This document shows positions 4,901 through 29,179 of a DNA stretch of 57,019 bases, piece after piece. Numbering within the stretch: position 1 is the stretch's first letter; each line of letters opens with the position of its first letter. Below the pieces are notes generated by a model. That model had not been told where the DNA came from, searched no databases, and worked only from the letters and a program-made list of their open reading frames with translations. The position numbers were made by a program, and so were the translations under genes. Source of the stretch: an uncultured Bacteroidota bacterium (GTDB taxonomy: Bacteria; Bacteroidota; Bacteroidia; Chitinophagales; Chitinophagaceae); contig CAIKZP010000209.1 in assembly GCA_903831935.1 (NCBI GenBank), positions 1 through 57,019 on the forward strand. Direction: 5' to 3'.

Positions 4901-7900
4901 AATTCTGCATTTGGAGCAATTTCAATGCAATATAATACTACAGGAAACAACAACTCTGCCTTTGGTATAGCAAGTTTACAATTCAATACAACTGGATTTG
5001 AAAATGCAGCATTTGGGGCATGGGCATTGAAAGCAAATACAATAGGAATTGGGAATTCTGCATTTGGTCATGATGCATTATTACAAAACACAATAGCTAG
5101 TGGAAATTCAGCATTTGGACAAAGAGCATTAAGAGAAACTACAACAGGAAATTCAAATTCATCTTTTGGTTCTTCTGCATTACAAAACAACACAACGGGA
5201 AGTGGCAATACGGCAATGGGAGCTTCTACACTGCAGAATAATACAACAGGCCAGTTTAATACTTCCCTTGGTTATAATTCTATGTACTCTAATACAACAG
5301 GATATGAAAATATTGCAATAGGCTATAATTCACTACTTGCAAATACTACTGGTTTTTTTAATACTGCAATTGGAAGTCAATCTTTAATAAATAATTCAAC
5401 TGGTTCTCATCAAACAGCGATTGGATATTTTGCACTTAATTCGAATACAACTTCTGAAGGAAACACTGCTGTGGGATATAGAGCACTTAGCTCAAATACA
5501 ATAGGATTTGGCAATGTTGGTATTGGCCAAAATGCCTTATTAGCAAATATTAATGGAGGGGGAAACAATGCGGTTGGTAATGGTGCTTTGCAACAAAACA
5601 CAACTGCTTCTGGAAATAATGCATTTGGCTTGTCTGCTTTATTTAATAATACCACAGGAAGCGGGAACTCAGCTTTTGGACATGATGTAATGAATCAAAA
5701 TATTATAGGTAGTAATAATACAGCTTTCGGACATAGTGCATTACATAATAATCTTTCTGATTATAATACTGCATTAGGTTTTAATGCCGGCTCAGTAAAT
5801 ACAATTGGCACAGGAAATATTGCAATTGGAGACGAAGCAAATTTTGGGAATAATAATCTTTCAAATGCCATAGTAATTGGAACAAATGCAATAGTTTCTG
5901 CAAGTAACCATATACAATTAGGAAATGCAAGTATTGATTCGGTAATTACTTCAGGAAAACTAAAATTAGGTGCAATTACATTGCCGAATACAGATGGTAC
6001 TGCGAATCAAGTATTAACAACAAATGGTAATGGATCAGTTACATGGGCAAATGCATCAAGCAGTTTAAGTGATCCAATTTCCAAATATTTAAAAACGGAT
6101 AGTTTAGGAAGTTTTGGTTTTGGTTCTAGTTCTTTAGCAAATAATATTAGCGGAGTTAGTAATAATGCTTTTGGATTGAACACATTACTTTATAATAAAT
6201 CAGGAAATTATAATACTGCTGTTGGCGCTTATTCAATGGTTCAAAATATATCAGGTAGCAGTAACACTGTTGTTGGTCATTTTGCTTTGAACCAAAATAC
6301 TACTGGAGGACAAAATACTGTAATGGGTATAGATGCTTTGAGAAATAATACCTCTGGTTCTAATAACACATCTATAGGGAACAGTAGTGGCTCTCAATTA
6401 TTAACTGGAAACGGCAATATATTTTTAGGCTCTAATGCAGGTAACCACACATCTTTTAATTCTGTAAATAATAAATTAATAATAGATAATTCAGGAACAG
6501 ACAAGCCATTAATTTATGGTGAGTTTGATACTAAGAAAGTTACAATAAACGGAGATTTAGAAGTAACAGGCGCCACTAATTTCACTCCAAAAAACATTAT
6601 TTTTTCTGGAATTACAGCAGTTGGTATTGGAGCGGGTAAAAATAATACAGGCTTAGCGAATTCGGCTTTTGGCTTAGGTGCTTTAACTAATAATACCAGT
6701 GGTTATGCAAACTCTGCATTTGGTGATGGGGCAATGGCAAATAATGTTAATGGTATCTATAATACTGGAGTTGGAGTAAATACACTTTGGAGTAATTCAA
6801 CTGGTTCAAACAATACAGCAATTGGCCTAGGGTCTTTAGGCGCAAATACTTCAGGAAATGGAAATACAGCTAGTGGCTGGTTAGCACTTTATCAAAATAC
6901 AATAGGAGGTGGGAATACTGCACACGGCAATCAGGCATTAAGATTAAACATAACAGGTTCTTATAATACAGCTATTGGCGATGGAGCACTATATAATAAT
7001 ACAAATGGTTCAAATAATATTTCTATAGGGAACAGTAGCGGCTCTCAATTATTAAACGGAAGCGGCAATATATTTTTAGGATCAAATGCAGGTAACCACA
7101 CATCTTATAGTTCTGTAAATAATAAATTAGTAATTGATAATTCAGGAACAGACAAGCCATTAATTTATGGAGAGTTTGATACTAAGAAGATGACAATTAA
7201 TGGAGACTTAATTGTAACTGGATTGATTAATGGTGGTACAACATCACCAACTGGAATAAAAAATATAAGTTTTGTAAATATTAATACATCTATTGGAGTT
7301 AGAGCTTTATTAAAAGATAGTACAAGCAATAGTAATGTTGCTGTGGGTTATCAGGCACTTAGTAATAACAGTGGAGCATTTAATACTGCTTTAGGTGTTA
7401 ATTCGCTTTTTGCTAATACAATTGGAAATAATAATACTTCCTTTGGATTAGAGTCTTTATTCTCAAACACAACTGGAAATAATAATACAGGAACAGGGAT
7501 ATATTCATTGTACTTTAATACTACTGGTGGTAATAATACAGCAAATGGCAAAGGTGCTTTGCAGTTTAATTCAACCGGTTCAGGTAATTCATCTTTTGGC
7601 TTAGAATCTATGTATTCAAGTACTATTGGCAATAGTAATAGCGCCTTTGGTCAAAATGCATTATACAATAATACCACTGGTTCTAATAACACATCTATAG
7701 GGAACAGTAGCGGCTCTCAATTATTAAACGGAAGCGGCAATATATTTTTAGGATCAAATGCAGGTAACCACACATCTTTTAATTCTGTAAATAATAAATT
7801 AATAATAGATAATTCAGGAACTGACAAGCCATTAATTTATGGTGAGTTTGATACTAAGAAGATGACAATTAATGGAGACTTAATTGTAACTGGATTGATT

Positions 7901-24478: not shown

Positions 24479-24602
24479 GTTGTTGTTTAGAGTTATAACA
24501 ACACAATATAGAATAGGTTCATTGTATTGGGTCTTCTCTGTCTATGGTTTGACAGTTTTCCAATAAATTTTGGCGTTTTATTATAATTGATTCCCAAAAC
24601 GC

Positions 24603-24640
24603 ACTCCTCCAATACACTGCGGTCTGCTCTTGTAAGTTTG
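24603..24640 (+). promoter_or_regulatory. 38-bp WYL-locus promoter box, copy 1
   Basis: The box holds A-TCCTCCAATA, then CG-TCTGC-C and ends in a perfect TAAGTTTG at 24633-24640, with 18 bases between CCAATA and TA. There is no TTG at -33. The ATG at 24659 follows after 18 bases. Copies 2 and 3 have the same layout. Confidence 0.7.
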
Positions 24641-24658
24641 TGTTTTAATACAAACCAC

Positions 24659-25345
24659 ATGATTTATACTTTGCCTGTAGCCGATGTGTTACTAAAGGAA
24701 ACCCTGTTAGAAGACGATTTTAACTCTAATTACGAAGGCTGGGAAATGATAGCCGACGAAGACGAAAAGAGTTTTATTAAGGACAGTTATTATTGGATGG
24801 AAAACAAAAGCAACTCACGTTGGATGTTTTACCACAAAAAGATGCCCATTGCAAAAGGCGAGAATTTTATTATCAACGCAGAGATTGAGCTACTTGGTAG
24901 TAAAGGATATGGTCAATATGGATTGGTTTGGGGATTCTCTAAACCGCACGAGGTGTTAAATCGTTTTACAGTGTCGGCAGATGCGAATCGTTTTTCGGTG
25001 CTTAAGTTCGATAAAGACCATTTTAGAACCTATCACCGTTTTAGTGGCAAGTTTGAAAAACCAGATCAATCGAATAAAAAACAGTTTTTTTCGATCATGC
25101 GTTTAGACGACTACTTTTATTTTTTTCTAGGTGAATTTGATCGTCCAGTATATACCTGCCATCAATCGCATTTAAGTATGGATGGATTAAGATTTGGTTT
25201 TTATATTGAACCAGGCATACTAATTCGTTGTAATAAAATAACGGTGAAACGGTTAATAACAAATCAATCCTTTGATGGACGTTTGTGGATGCCGGTTGAC
25301 GATAATTTACAGCCCTTGGGTTCTGAACTTATTAGAGGTAATTAG
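24659..25345 (+). CDS. Unknown beta-rich protein, target of box 1
   Basis: A 228-residue protein with no signal peptide and no family I recognise. It reads as a single beta-sandwich: DDFNSNYEGWEM, SRWMFYHKKM, YGQYGLVWGFSK, FTVSADANRFSVLKF and LRFGFYIEPG resemble lectin/LamG or DUF1080-like jelly rolls, but no catalytic site is obvious. The longer frame from 24587 would start upstream of the promoter box, so I choose ATG 24659. It is convergent with the WYL regulator gene, overlapping it by 14 bases, so the two transcripts are antisense at their 3' ends. Confidence 0.7.
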   Translation: MIYTLPVADVLLKETLLEDDFNSNYEGWEMIADEDEKSFIKDSYYWMENKSNSRWMFYHKKMPIAKGENFIINAEIELLGSKGYGQYGLVWGFSKPHEVLNRFTVSADANRFSVLKFDKDHFRTYHRFSGKFEKPDQSNKKQFFSIMRLDDYFYFFLGEFDRPVYTCHQSHLSMDGLRFGFYIEPGILIRCNKITVKRLITNQSFDGRLWMPVDDNLQPLGSELIRGN

Positions 25346-26339
25346 CCCCCATTGCCTCAATTACTTCTTTCATTTTTTTACGAAGCGATGCAGGTTTGGT
25401 TACCGTGCAATTAGCGCCCATAGAAAGTATTTTCAAATAAAACTCTTCGTTTACAAAAACGTTTACGCTTAGTTTTATTTGGTTGGCATTTTGGCTGATT
25501 ATTTTTTGCGATTCGTGGATGGGCTCTAACAATACTAATTCGCTAATTGGGTGATTGATGGTAAGGCTTACCTCCGTTGGTTTATAAGCGCCTTCCATAA
25601 TTCCGGTGGCGTATTGAAAAAATCCATCGGCATTAAAATCTAATCGGCGTTTGTGTTTTTCATCAATGATGGTTAATTCAGAAAGTCGGTCTAAACCAAA
25701 AGTGGTGTATTTGTTTTTGTCATTACTCCATCCAATTAAATACCAACGATTGCGATGTTCTTTTAACAAATATGGAATTAACTGATAAGATTTGGTTTCT
25801 TTTTTATAAATATTGTGGTAGGTAAAACTGATGGCATTTTTGTTTGAGATGGCTTCGTAAATAATATCAATCCACTCCATTCCGTTTGATGCTACCGAAC
25901 GTTCAAATTGTACAGCTTGGTTAATGATGGGTTCGCCTAACTCAAACCCCAGCGAGAAGCACGCGTTGATTCTTTCAATAGCCGATTTAAAATTTGAAAA
26001 GATTGGTACGTTTCTATATTGATACAATAGTTGTGATGCAAAGTTTATTGCCTCCCATTCATTGTCTTGCAGGTTTAATTCAGATATTGAAAATCCTTGC
26101 TCGCCATAAATATATCCTTTGTGTAATTTAGAATATACAATGGGCGCACTATACCCCATAGGATGCGGCAGTTTCATGGCTGCAATATCTTTTTCAATAG
26201 TGGAAGTAGAAACATCAATATTAATTATTTCAGAACAACGCTTGGCCAAATATTCTTTGGTAGGATATGGTTTGCGTTTATCAATAATACAATCGTTTAT
26301 AACACGGTAGCGTCGGGCTGCAGATTTATTTATTGGCAT
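25332..26339 (-). CDS. WYL-domain transcriptional regulator
   Basis: A 335-residue DNA-binding regulator. Residues ~5-75 form a winged helix-turn-helix. The WYL domain spans ~153-225 with W199-Y200-L201 in RWYLIGW, and a C-terminal WCX-like extension covers ~235-335. In other phyla such proteins (PafBC, DriD) sense single-stranded DNA and activate damage genes. It has three copies of one promoter box nearby, none of which faces its own start. Box 2 lies 80 bases upstream of its ATG in the divergent orientation. Confidence 0.9.
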   Translation of the reverse strand: MPINKSAARRYRVINDCIIDKRKPYPTKEYLAKRCSEIINIDVSTSTIEKDIAAMKLPHPMGYSAPIVYSKLHKGYIYGEQGFSISELNLQDNEWEAINFASQLLYQYRNVPIFSNFKSAIERINACFSLGFELGEPIINQAVQFERSVASNGMEWIDIIYEAISNKNAISFTYHNIYKKETKSYQLIPYLLKEHRNRWYLIGWSNDKNKYTTFGLDRLSELTIIDEKHKRRLDFNADGFFQYATGIMEGAYKPTEVSLTINHPISELVLLEPIHESQKIISQNANQIKLSVNVFVNEEFYLKILSMGANCTVTKPASLRKKMKEVIEAMGANYL

Positions 26340-26419
26340 TTGTAGGTGTTTAACAAGTGTAAAGTAGTTTAAAGGCTTTAAAAATTGCAGAACAAACTAT
26401 TAAAATAATAAAAAAATTT

Positions 26420-26457
26420 AGTCCTCCAATAGGTGGCGTTCTGCACCGGTAGATTTG
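26420..26457 (+). promoter_or_regulatory. 38-bp WYL-locus promoter box, copy 2
   Basis: It has AGTCCTCCAATAGG, CGTTCTGCAC and a perfect TAGATTTG at 26450-26457, with the same 18-base spacing as copies 1 and 3. The leader to the DUF2130 ATG (26551) is 93 bases and AT-rich, with no clear secondary structure. Confidence 0.72.
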
Positions 26458-26550
26458 AGGGAATAAATAATTAATAATTACTCAAAGCGCTGCTAGTTTG
26501 AATGGATTAGGGTAATTTTAAGATTGGTTAAAAACAAAAAATGAATTGAT

Positions 26551-27828
26551 ATGAACGAAATTATTTGTCCTAATTGTAAAAAAGCTTTTAAAATAGACGA
26601 AGCTGGTTATGCCGATATTTTAAAGCAGGTGCATGACCATAAGTTTGAAGAAGAATTACAACAAAGACTAGCTTATGCCAATACAGAAAAAGAATCTGCC
26701 ATAAAATTGGCCGAAGCAACTGTTAAAAGTTTAATGCAAGACCAAATTACAAATAAAGAGAAGGAACTAACAGAACTGAAATCGCAAAGCGCATTAGCCC
26801 TATCTCAAAAATTAAATGTAAAAGATTCTGAAATAACGCAACTAAAAGCAAGAATTGACAATATTGAGGTTGAAAAAAAACTGGCTATCAACGAGGCTGT
26901 TCAAAAGGTTCAAAAAGAAAGAGATAGTTTAGAAAATGATGTTAAGACCAAAGATTTAGAAAAACAAAGTTTAGAAAATTCTTTAAAACAACAATTTTCT
27001 ACCGTACTCAAAACCAAGGACGATATTATTAAATATAAAGACGAAGAAATTGCTCGTGTAAAAGAAATGAAGCAAAGACTCTCTACTAAAATGTTGGGCG
27101 AAACGCTAGAGCAACATTGCGAAACTGAATTTAACAAACTTCGATCAACCGCTTTTCAAAGAGCCTATTTTGAAAAAGACAACGATGCAAGATCTGGAAG
27201 TAAGGGTGATTTTATTTATAGAGAATCAGACGAGTTTGGAACAGAAATTATTTCAATCATGTTTGAAATGAAAAACGAAGGAGACGAAACCGCTACCAAA
27301 AAAAAGAACGATGATTTTTTAAAAGAGTTAGACAAAGACCGCATAGAAAAAAAATGTGAATACGCAGTGCTGGTATCTCTTTTAGAATCAGACAGCGAAC
27401 TCTATAACACAGGTATTGTTGATATGAGTTATAAATACCCTAAAATGTATGTGGTGCGTCCACAGTTTTTTATTCCCATCATTACCTTACTTCGCAATGC
27501 TGCAATGACTTCGCTAAAATATAAAGCAGAGCTTGCATTGGTTAAAAGTCAAAATATAGACATTACTAATTTCGAAGATAAAATGACCACTTTTAAAGAA
27601 GGGTTTTCTAGAAATTATGATTTAGCCAGTCGTAAATTTAAAGAGGCAATTGATGAAATTGATAAAACAATTAGCCATCTACAAAAAACAAAAGACGCCT
27701 TGTTGTCGTCTGAAAATAATTTGCGCTTAGCAAATGAAAAAGCCGAAGACCTTACCATAAAAAAACTAACGCACGGCAATCCAACAATGAAAGCAAAGTT
27801 TGATGAATTAACGGATAATGCTGAATAA
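26551..27828 (+). CDS. DUF2130 protein: zinc knuckle, coiled coil and PD-(D/E)XK-like domain
   Basis: A 425-residue cytosolic protein. It begins with a CPNC zinc-binding pair (C6, C9). A long charged coiled coil (~35-175) is followed by the DUF2130 core, where GDF (D220) is followed by FEMK (E239-x-K241), a spacing that fits a PD-(D/E)XK nuclease. The core continues with [15 protein letters not shown] and YAVLVS. A second coiled coil (~340-400) closes the protein. The architecture suggests DNA end or structure processing, but no activity is established for the family. Box 2 is its promoter, and the DinD-like gene follows after 87 bp. Confidence 0.85.
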
Positions 27829-27915
27829 TCAAAAGGTAAAGTAATTTAAACGGAGCTTACTAGAATTACAGGCTTTATTAATAATGGATTTCGAGTATTT
27901 TTAAATACAGAAAAA

Positions 27916-28752
27916 ATGAGCAATATTAAATTATTTGAAAGCAGTCTTATAAGGACTTCTTGGAGTGAAAGAGAACAGAAATGGTATTTTTCAGTTCAGG
28001 ATGTAGTGCAATTATTGACGGATACATCTAATGTAAAGGATTATTTAAAAAAAATGAAAAAGAGGGATGCTCAGCTAAATTCCAACTGGGGGACAATTTG
28101 TCCCCTAGTTGAAATGCAAGCCGCTGATGGAAAAAAACGAAAGGTTCAAGCTGCCAATACTCGGGGAATTTTGAGGATTATTCAATCTATTCCTTCTTCA
28201 AAAGCAGAGCCTTTTAAACTTTGGTTAGCACAAGTAGGATCGGAGCGCTTGGAAGAAATAGAAGACCCTGAAATTGGAACACAAAGAATTCGAGAAACAT
28301 ACAAAGCAAAAGGGTACAGCTCTGAGTGGATTGAAAAAAGAATGAGAGGTATCGCGGTTAGAGATGAGTTGACTGGTGAATGGAAAAATCGTGGAGTAAA
28401 AGAAGGTGTGGAATATTCAATTCTTACAGCGGAGATAAGTAAAGCAACTTTTGGAATTGCCCCAAGTGATTATAAAAAGCTGAAGGGACTTGCAAAATCA
28501 AGCGAAAATCTGCGCGACCATATGACAGACCTTGAGTTAATATTTACAATGCTTGGAGAAGCATCAACCACGGAAATTGCCAAAAACAAAGATGCACAAG
28601 GCTTTATTGAAAATAGAAAGGCAGCTAAAGCAGGAGGAAAAGTTGCGGGAAAGGCCAGACAAGACCTTGAAAGAAAATCAGGAAAGAGTATTGTTTCAAA
28701 AGAAAACTTTAAACAACTAACAGAAAAAGAAAAAAAAAGATTAAAGGGATAA
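27916..28752 (+). CDS. Bro-N / DinD-like damage-inducible protein
   Basis: A 278-residue protein with a Bro-N domain (~1-115: WYFSVQDVVQLLT, ANTRGILRIIQ). The C-terminal region resembles E. coli DinD in order and key residues (LKGLAKSSENLRDHM, LELIFTMLGE, then GGKVAGKARQDLE). DinD interferes with RecA-dependent recombination and is SOS-induced in E. coli; Bro-N proteins are otherwise phage antirepressors. No phage structural genes are nearby, so I favour a damage-response role. It follows the DUF2130 gene by 87 bp. Confidence 0.82.
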   Translation: MSNIKLFESSLIRTSWSEREQKWYFSVQDVVQLLTDTSNVKDYLKKMKKRDAQLNSNWGTICPLVEMQAADGKKRKVQAANTRGILRIIQSIPSSKAEPFKLWLAQVGSERLEEIEDPEIGTQRIRETYKAKGYSSEWIEKRMRGIAVRDELTGEWKNRGVKEGVEYSILTAEISKATFGIAPSDYKKLKGLAKSSENLRDHMTDLELIFTMLGEASTTEIAKNKDAQGFIENRKAAKAGGKVAGKARQDLERKSGKSIVSKENFKQLTEKEKKRLKG

Positions 28753-28762
28753 AAATTATTTC

Positions 28763-28800
28763 AGTCCTCCAATAGGCTACGTTCTGCACTTGTAACTTTA
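28763..28800 (+). promoter_or_regulatory. 38-bp WYL-locus promoter box, copy 3
   Basis: It has AGTCCTCCAATAGG, CGTTCTGCAC and TAACTTTA at 28793-28800, where the last base departs from the -7 consensus. It starts 10 bases after the DinD-like stop and stands 19 bases before the ATG at 28820. Copies 2 and 3 are the most alike. Confidence 0.7.
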
Positions 28801-28819
28801 ATTTATTAAATACAAGAAC

Positions 28820-29179
28820 ATGCAAAATGCCTCTACTGTTTCTAAATTTATTGTTGACAAAATTAAAACGACGCCCTGGAAAAAACGTGCGTATATCAAC
28901 GATCTATTGCAATTACGCAGTTGGATAATTAATGGCCCAACAGGATTTATTAGCGGCCAACATTATTGGCGTTTTAGAAACAAATATCCTCAAGAGTATT
29001 TGGCGCTGTTACAAGAACATAGTCCTGAAAAATACCAGCAAGAACTTATGCGCCGCGAAGAAACACTCCTACAAAACTGGAACCGACTAAAAGAACAAAA
29101 AGCCCAAAAACAATTAGAAGCAGAAAAGGAATTAGAAGAGTATGAAGAGTGGTTGGCTATTGGGGGATTGGCTTCTTAA
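28820..29179 (+). CDS. Unknown 119-residue protein, target of box 3
   Basis: I do not recognise this family. The N-terminal half has a compact conserved-looking patch (TPWKKRAYINDLLQLR, then GFISGQHYWRFRNKYP). The C-terminal half (~70-112) is a highly charged helix rich in Glu, Lys and Gln, likely a coiled coil. No signal peptide or membrane segment is present. Its own promoter box ties it to the WYL locus, and the tryptophan/arginine-rich patch could bind nucleic acid, but that is only a guess. Confidence 0.65.
   Translation: MQNASTVSKFIVDKIKTTPWKKRAYINDLLQLRSWIINGPTGFISGQHYWRFRNKYPQEYLALLQEHSPEKYQQELMRREETLLQNWNRLKEQKAQKQLEAEKELEEYEEWLAIGGLAS

Follow-up and report, generated by a model that had tools for sequence, protein, structure and literature searches.

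A palindromic promoter box that follows a clade of WYL regulators in Bacteroidota: candidate operator of a DriD-like regulon of repair and defense genes

The window analyzed here, a stretch of 57,019 nucleotides from an uncultured Bacteroidota bacterium of the Chitinophagaceae (GenBank assembly GCA_903831935.1, contig CAIKZP010000209.1), contains three copies of a promoter box around a gene encoding a WYL-domain regulator. Comparison with related genomes indicates that the box is real and conserved and that it most likely represents a new variant of DriD/PafBC-type regulation. The WYL protein very likely binds the box and, provided that it does, is likely to act there as an activator; the full proposal, in which the protein is a homodimeric, DriD-like activator of a small, scattered regulon, seems a fairly probable reading. 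To our knowledge, the DNA damage response of Bacteroidota is poorly mapped, and no such regulon was found described in the titles and abstract openings of the open-licence literature on WYL proteins in Bacteroidota, among the matches listed. Below, numbers preceded by L, G, and C denote loci, genomes, and contigs, respectively, G000 being the window's own genome.

Each box combines an operator with a -7 element read from the sequence, all on the plus strand. The operator of box 1 is a 25-bp imperfect palindrome (24602..24626; dyad center, 24614) followed by the -7 element TAAGTTTG at 24633..24640; box 2 (operator, 26419..26443; dyad center, 26431; -7 element TAGATTTG, 26450..26457) lies in the divergent gap between the WYL gene and a DUF2130 gene; and box 3 has its operator at 28762..28786 (dyad center, 28774) and its -7 element, TAACTTTA, at 28793..28800. 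The boxes had been reported in an initial annotation at 24603-24640, 26420-26457, and 28763-28800, and direct reading of the sequence bears this out, together with the spacing, in which CCAATA and the TA of the -7 element are separated by exactly 18 bases in all three, the distances of 18, 93, and 19 bases from boxes 1, 2, and 3 to the ATG, and the absence of TTTG or TTG from the -33 slot of every box, which instead holds CAAT (N19), AATA (N18), and TAC or TAG (N17). The same annotation had found no further copy in the window, in agreement with a 35-position pattern, derived from the window boxes themselves, that matched these three alone when up to three mismatches were allowed; shuffling gave an expectation of 0.00 (100 shuffles) against the 3 real matches. 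The three boxes are no chance occurrence. Conservation between near relatives is less telling: in locus L017, which is ∼94% identical to the window, box 1 is 95%, box 2 is 87% (with flanks at 89 to 90%), and box 3 is 100% identical, so that the boxes are no consistently better kept than their flanks.

Across relatives, the consensus reads C-A-S-T-CCTCC-AATAnnT-GGAGG-W-S-T-G, followed by ∼6 nt and TAnnTTTG (85 sites, some of which are reverse readings of strong palindromes), that is, an imperfect ∼25-bp palindrome with the half-sites CCTCC-N7-GGAGG. When the two halves are aligned in the dyad register, the share of pairing cells is 58.7% at slide 0 versus 32 to 44% when slid. A symmetrized, operator-only matrix located 67 centers, compared to 0.0 in shuffles; the sites behind its columns had initially been selected with a pattern that included the -7 element, and some of them come from near-duplicate metagenome-assembled genomes. 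After two operators without a downstream open reading frame (ORF) were left out, 63 distinct operators with such an ORF were retained, among which TAnnTTT begins at +19 from the dyad center in 28 and at +20 in 9, with any other offset occurring at most 3 times. Among these 37 sites with the -7 element at +19 or +20, none has TTTG at -33, and two have TTG with a spacer of 17. The available part of a mapping study in Flavobacterium places TAnnTTTG at -12 to -5 (PMC9723704); because this mapping is applied here, the dyad center falls at ∼-31 and the operator spans ∼-43 to -19. Together, these observations support an arrangement in which the box would cover the -33 region and replace the -33 element at a near-fixed distance from the -7 element. 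A function of the dyad as an RNA hairpin was considered and rejected: its mismatches lack compensatory pairing, covariation is 0.041 versus 0.069 in shuffles, and paired cells make up 58.7% versus 61.3%.

The search of the whole genome and of related genomes, which the initial annotation had set as a test of its own proposal, did not overturn that proposal: the box follows the WYL clade. Forty-two WYL loci were gathered with the patterns MP[KI]NKSA[VA] and STSTIEKD, mostly from metagenome-assembled genomes titled Bacteroidetes, Sphingobacteriia, Chitinophagaceae, or Chitinophaga, but including six Flavobacteriales, one Cytophagales, and the cultured Sediminibacterium salmoneum. A site scoring above 26 with a position weight matrix (PWM), trained on the same loci, is present in 30 of the 42; five loci (L044, L045, L049, L057, and L058) carry weaker variants with scores of 12 to 25, and in seven (L028, L030, L038, L047, L052, L053, and L056) no PWM site above 12 was found, although the genomes of L028, L030, and L038 carry boxes elsewhere. 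A sequence-only model, R1, was then built from 53 boxes hand-picked from the PWM sites of WYL loci plus four boxes of the window's own genome, with near-duplicate loci, reverse readings, and divergent clades excluded; box 1, itself used in building R1, matches it at E=1.2e-8. At E<=0.01, R1 matches 28 of 29 WYL-carrying genomes, with 1 to 10 matches each. Given that 23 of the 29 supplied R1 sites, the fair count is five of the six others, and three of these five (G147, G149, and G162) are closely related to training genomes. In the sole negative genome, G172, the WYL gene is at a contig end.

In a sample of 147 genomes of the family, by comparison, R1 matches only 6 at E<=1e-3, of which three (G000, G051, and G139) contributed sites to the model; an earlier search, with a pattern from the boxes of the window's own genome, had also picked out G051 and G137. 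At E<=0.01 with stricter filters, seven genomes match, one of them (G019; E=0.0027) without a -7 element and set aside as a likely chance match, and at E<=0.5 the count of 108 is noise. Five of the six box-positive genomes have a WYL match at E<=1e-40, and in the sixth, G053, the C-terminal part of a WYL protein lies at the edge of a contig (E 5e-6); some WYL match at E<=1e-40 exists in 66 of the 147, most of them lower scoring. WYL scores above 320 bits occur in eight family genomes, four of which (G000, G051, G137, and G083) carry the box. The order of genes agrees with the linkage: the box, a 75-residue gene, and the WYL gene share one strand in L032, L034, and L037; the box precedes a 274-residue gene and the WYL gene in L054; and in several relatives the WYL gene stands behind its own box. 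Taken together, this distribution supports a tie between the box and this WYL clade. A 3-mismatch pattern scan was less discriminating, giving 8 places outside the window's own genome versus 5 for a reversed control pattern among the genomes listed; this count is near chance, and position alone made the sites in G051, G137, and G053 convincing.

The target of box 1, denoted F1 (228 residues; 24659..25345, plus strand), provides a separate view of the linkage. F1 had no match in Pfam, NCBIfam, PADLOC, PHROG, or solved structures. With a profile of 14 proteins chosen for standing behind boxes, F1 was detected in 1 of the 147 family genomes, the window's own, versus 20 of the 29 WYL-carrying genomes, for 22 genes in total, all 22 with a box (score >18) within 220 nt upstream. 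The fair count, restricted to copies outside the seed, is eight of eight (G147, G149, G153:C172, G158 twice, G160, G161, and G166), six of which lie outside the PWM training loci; 329 ORFs with 200 or more residues in WYL loci served as a control, and 26 of them, true targets included, score as high. In 20 of the 22 F1 promoters, TTTG is 8 to 25 nt from the ATG, and therefore there is no room for another promoter. This compactness, along with the near-constant spacing to the -7 element and the end of sequence conservation at that element, also bears on a possible origin of the box as a mobile or recombination element, such as an integron-like cassette site or a miniature inverted-repeat transposable element, that precedes genes by accident. 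Such an origin could be imagined from the similar copies scattered over contigs and from several island-like defense targets, but dyad mismatches without compensatory pairing agree with a protein-binding rather than a folded site, and on these grounds of spacing, conservation, and pairing we consider a mobile origin extremely improbable.

The half-sites differ between clades. Those of the main group are CCTCCAA/TTGGAGG; TCTGC(A/C)AA/T(T/G)GCAGA precedes RmuC genes in L050, L051, and L055, where the helix stretch of the WYL protein reads SISMLNKDL (the L051 gene alone was scanned with Pfam, the other two being assigned by clustering with it); in Flavobacteriales, CCGTAAA/TTACGG or TTGCGG precedes a gene of 93 to 97 residues; and in L058 (Cytophagales), GCGTAAA/TTACG precedes the WYL gene. 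The 93- to 97-residue family directly follows the WYL gene behind a TCCGTAAATCnnTTACGGAGTG-type palindrome in the Flavobacteriales loci L044, L045, L049, and L057, and in three of these the protein begins with MSIPLNPLAF. A code that would link the STSTIEKD stretch to the half-site was abandoned, given that L044, L045, L049, and L058 keep STSTIEKD with other half-sites; for that reason, binding of the box by the WYL protein is rated here as very likely instead of slightly higher, and the full proposal and its broadest form are likewise rated slightly lower than they otherwise would be. The boxes and variants beside the WYL gene across clades thus support the pairing of the two but show no code. 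At distant WYL loci, a generic palindrome scan gave 2 matches versus 0.45 in shuffles, and the PWM then revealed palindromes that are related but not the same (for example, in L079, L080, and L085). The distant relatives in L079, L080, L085, L067, L069, and L074, all from the family, have different palindromes near the WYL gene (for example, ACTGTGCAAAAAGACTGCACAGT and CACTGCGCAAATAGATTGCGCAGTA), which suggests a wider family of WYL/operator pairs.

Conceivably, some other factor reads the box, be it an alternative sigma factor or an activator encoded at an unlinked place, and the WYL gene is only a member of the regulon. In several genomes, the WYL gene indeed lies behind the box as a target would, an alternative sigma factor could replace the -33 contact, and an identical WYL helix stretch accompanies half-sites that differ from order to order. 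However, the -7 element has the housekeeping form TAnnTTTG, the dyad symmetry of the site sets it apart from sigma sites, and the presence of the box tracks the WYL clade, with boxes or variants adjoining the WYL gene across clades. We therefore regard a different reader of the box as quite unlikely and retain the WYL protein as its candidate ligand.

The WYL regulator itself (335 residues; 25332..26339, minus strand) has a putative N-terminal helix-turn-helix (VSTSTIEKDI), predicted from the sequence, and the WYL (157-224) and WCX (254-330) domains of such regulators, matched in Pfam at 1.2e-15 and 1.2e-6, respectively. Residues S44, S46, K50, and D51 of the putative helix-turn-helix are invariant in 28 rows, for the retrieval of which STSTIEKD was itself one of the search patterns; W199, Y200, and R218 are conserved in 28 of 28 relatives, which is at most compatible with binding of single-stranded DNA (ssDNA). 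The nearest solved relatives of the family by profile are PafBC (the best) and DriD: the family profile matches the PafBC fusion chain at 2e-15 and DriD at 7e-13, compared to 6e-4 and 0.0045 for the structures named CapW and BrxR. Matches to 7tb5 (1e-5) and 7qfz (4e-5), which we take to be CapW and BrxR, fall between these values. The initial annotation's description of this protein as the only regulator among the boxes was slightly too strong, as the neighboring Bro-N protein weakly matches phage anti-repressor families (best, 5e-4). No second WYL match was obtained among the window proteins scanned with Pfam. Elsewhere in the same genome, a distant WYL-type protein is encoded at G000:C43:3768-4217 (E 2e-10).

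The other targets in the window and its genome are diverse. Box 2 precedes a DUF2130 protein (425 residues; 26551..27828, plus strand; Pfam PF09903, 3.2e-88), presumably PD-(D/E)XK- or RmuC-like, followed by a Bro-N/DinD-like protein (278 residues; 27916..28752, plus strand; PADLOC PDC-S13, 5e-119) whose NCBIfam DinD match, at 0.001, is far below the cut-off. The gene for the latter is missing from its spot (window positions 27829-28752) in L017, which keeps the three boxes and the flanking genes. The difference would be an insertion or deletion. The Bro-N/DinD-like protein, initially listed among the targets, may accompany the box 2 unit as an optional passenger, and its place as a core member is not supported. 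Box 3 precedes F2 (119 residues; 28820..29179, plus strand), which has box-headed relatives at eight further WYL loci, near duplicates included. A fourth box, found by a pattern search of the same genome at C203:13387, precedes a 113-residue gene that is homologous (53% over 72 residues, 2e-26) to the gene following the F2 relative in L032, an arrangement shared by L034 and L035. A fifth, found with R1 at C203:31796 and bringing the genome to five R1 matches at E<=0.01, precedes an 82-residue gene corresponding to the C terminus of the 274-residue family (63% over 71 residues, 8e-30), which is itself box headed in other genomes. Downstream of the box 4 gene, a C5-methyltransferase-like reading frame was seen by eye (C203; L004, ∼2120 onward).

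In relatives, boxes precede RmuC plus an SNF2-type helicase (L051), a contig-terminal RecD_N/AAA fragment (6e-4 and 1.5e-4, neither of which reaches the cut-off), UVR-motif proteins (1e-4, above the cut-off, and 3e-3, below it) with two Endonuc_Holl genes or with NT5C, SspB/DUF4007, and DUF6922 plus AbiEii (behind a low-scoring box, 19.4). In L167 (G158:C1:42200-49500), one box heads MazG-like and Schlafen-group-3 helicase genes and a second heads two consecutive C5 methyltransferase genes, possibly a defense island under the same box. Operons were assigned here from same-strand closeness. The annotated targets in relatives are thus largely DNA repair, nucleotide, and defense genes, so that a genome-stress and defense regulon is plausible, as is the link to DNA damage suggested by the company of the box targets; HODM-like and radical SAM genes further downstream fit this theme poorly. 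Among control genes, two of nine were DNA related, both of them recA (the first ten of 172 shuffled candidates minus one WYL gene). Where it can be judged, the box set appears unlike the SOS core, comprising instead accessory nucleases, helicases, and defense genes; with the LexA DNA-binding domain PF01726, no match was obtained in G000 (96% complete), in a search that was positive for 10 of 14 control genomes, archaea included. Two further comparisons were negative: a 449-residue protein behind the G053 box that had appeared RmuC-like by eye gave no match in a direct comparison with the L051 RmuC (E 1.1), and for a 136-residue family no solved relative was found, its single match (E=0.67) being taken as chance. 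In L121 (G083:C7:43500-53500; ∼5000-6630), a WYL paralogue with the helix stretch IGVRTFEGDI is divergent from a Ub-like (DUF2604)/Metal_CEHH/JAB operon; the JAB protein matches BilC at 1.5e-15, the box variant CTCCGCAAATAGGTTGCGGTG lies between operon and paralogue, and regulation of a Bil-like defense system by this paralogue is possible.

Under the proposed mechanism, the helix-turn-helix domains of a WYL dimer would bind the palindromic box over the -33 region (∼-43 to -19, centered at ∼-31). In these promoters, the -7 element TAnnTTTG would be the only one found by RNA polymerase carrying the housekeeping sigma factor, and the bound WYL dimer would stand in for the -33 contact. The WYL domain would sense a nucleic acid that arises when the genome is injured or a phage infects the cell, for which ssDNA, as in DriD and PafBC, is the likeliest candidate, the chances that it is the actual signal being about even by analogy. 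Repair nucleases and helicases, nucleotide hydrolases, phage defense genes, and several unknown small-protein families would be switched on as a consequence. The broadest form of this proposal, which we put forward tentatively, is that the WYL dimer is a genome-injury switch at 1 to 10 dispersed promoters that couples repair nucleases and helicases, deoxynucleoside triphosphate hydrolases, self-standing phage defense, and unknown families, with half-sites that drift between clades.

Several observations weigh against an activator of this kind. The palindrome, which is plain in relatives, is weak in the window: dyad pairs match at 5, 6, and 4 of 11 positions in boxes 1, 2, and 3, the left half being well kept and the right half degenerate. 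An exact TAnnTTT is at neither +19 nor +20 in 26 of the 63 operators. Four family genomes with WYL scores above 320 bits (G049, G072, G080, and G087) have no R1 box at E<=1e-3; STSTIEKD is absent from the three proteins read in this set, and a single candidate site, with a PWM score of 20, exists in G080. STSTIEKD is shared despite differing half-sites; therefore, this stretch does not set the half-site, and recognition is left unexplained. Target enrichment is qualitative, and most target families are without known function. Furthermore, recA, which adjoins the WYL gene in L028 (1283-3443) and is ∼7.5 kb from it in L037 (1498-11005), has no box in either of these two loci. Finally, the PafC chain alone matches at 1.6e-4, no better than CapW, and the single window sequence (7p5x_AY, which we take to be PafB, 1.6e-4; 7qfz, 0.0097; DriD WYL domain, 0.027) gives an equivocal result that fails to separate activators from repressors.

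The last point, together with the G083 paralogue, whose divergence from a defense-like operon resembles the layout of CapW-type repressors, leads to a further alternative, in which the WYL protein is a CapW/BrxR-like repressor that blocks polymerase at the box until infection or damage releases it. A palindromic operator and defense targets such as SspB, methyltransferases, AbiEii, and the Bil-like operon would be in keeping with such a role. However, the box leaves TAnnTTTG free at 19 or 20 bp, unlike the CapW sites over -10 described in the accessible part of the report (PMC9122588), promoters without a -33 element would be poor unaided, and, at the family level, the similarity to CapW and BrxR is below that to the PafBC fusion chain and DriD. 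Repression is therefore judged unlikely, and activation by the WYL protein remains the preferred reading. If it is correct, the box would provide a promoter signature with which to predict regulons across the group, one regulator would tie phage defense to genome-stress sensing, the F1, F2, 136-residue, and 274-residue families would become candidate repair or defense factors, and the DriD mechanism would have a counterpart in Bacteroidota, a phylum with its own promoter elements.

Among known WYL systems, CapW resembles the present case in that a WYL homodimer occupies a ∼20-bp palindrome at defense genes. In CapW, to judge from the same excerpts, the sites overlap -10 and repress, whereas here the site ends upstream of TAnnTTTG, recurs at scattered genes, and is linked to a protein with a weaker profile match to CapW and BrxR; the arrangement of these repressors, an operator over the -10 of one adjacent defense operon, is not the one observed. 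SiwR, according to part of its description (PMC10693628), is a mycobacterial WYL activator of the genotoxic stress response, a homodimer whose imperfect palindrome lies within the promoter; as far as that part goes, it differs in controlling adjacent genes from a site between -35 and -10. PafBC, for which excerpts describe a -26 motif and sigma adaptation with the housekeeping polymerase in mycobacteria (PMC11804915), is a WYL regulator that replaces the -35 contact, as predicted for the window protein, and is the best profile match among solved structures. PafBC is, however, a heterodimer with a -26 motif, in contrast to the symmetric site over -33 found here, centered at ∼-31, so that a PafBC-style -26 element was dropped as the closest model. 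Of the sigma-adapter damage regulon proposed in the initial annotation, the WYL-linked box that would replace -33 has stood, and the annotated targets in relatives, largely DNA repair, nucleotide, and defense genes, lend it support; PafBC as the specific model and core membership of the DinD-like protein have not stood. DriD, an SOS-independent damage activator of Caulobacter, is closer: in the available portion of the source (PMC12340889), its site, ATACGAC-N7-GTCGTAT, lies over -35 in promoters where that element is poor, and its distance to -10 is constant. The phylum, the half-site, the -7 element, and the center of the box at ∼-31 set the present system apart, as do targets that are mostly other and include phage defense genes and unknown families, and control by ssDNA, a feature of DriD, would extend to the window protein by analogy. 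Nonetheless, as far as that portion of the source allows comparison, the two have in common a WYL protein, an N7 pseudopalindrome over -35 or -33, a near-constant distance to -10 or -7, a poor or missing -35 or -33 element, a site at the regulator's own gene, and nuclease genes among the targets.

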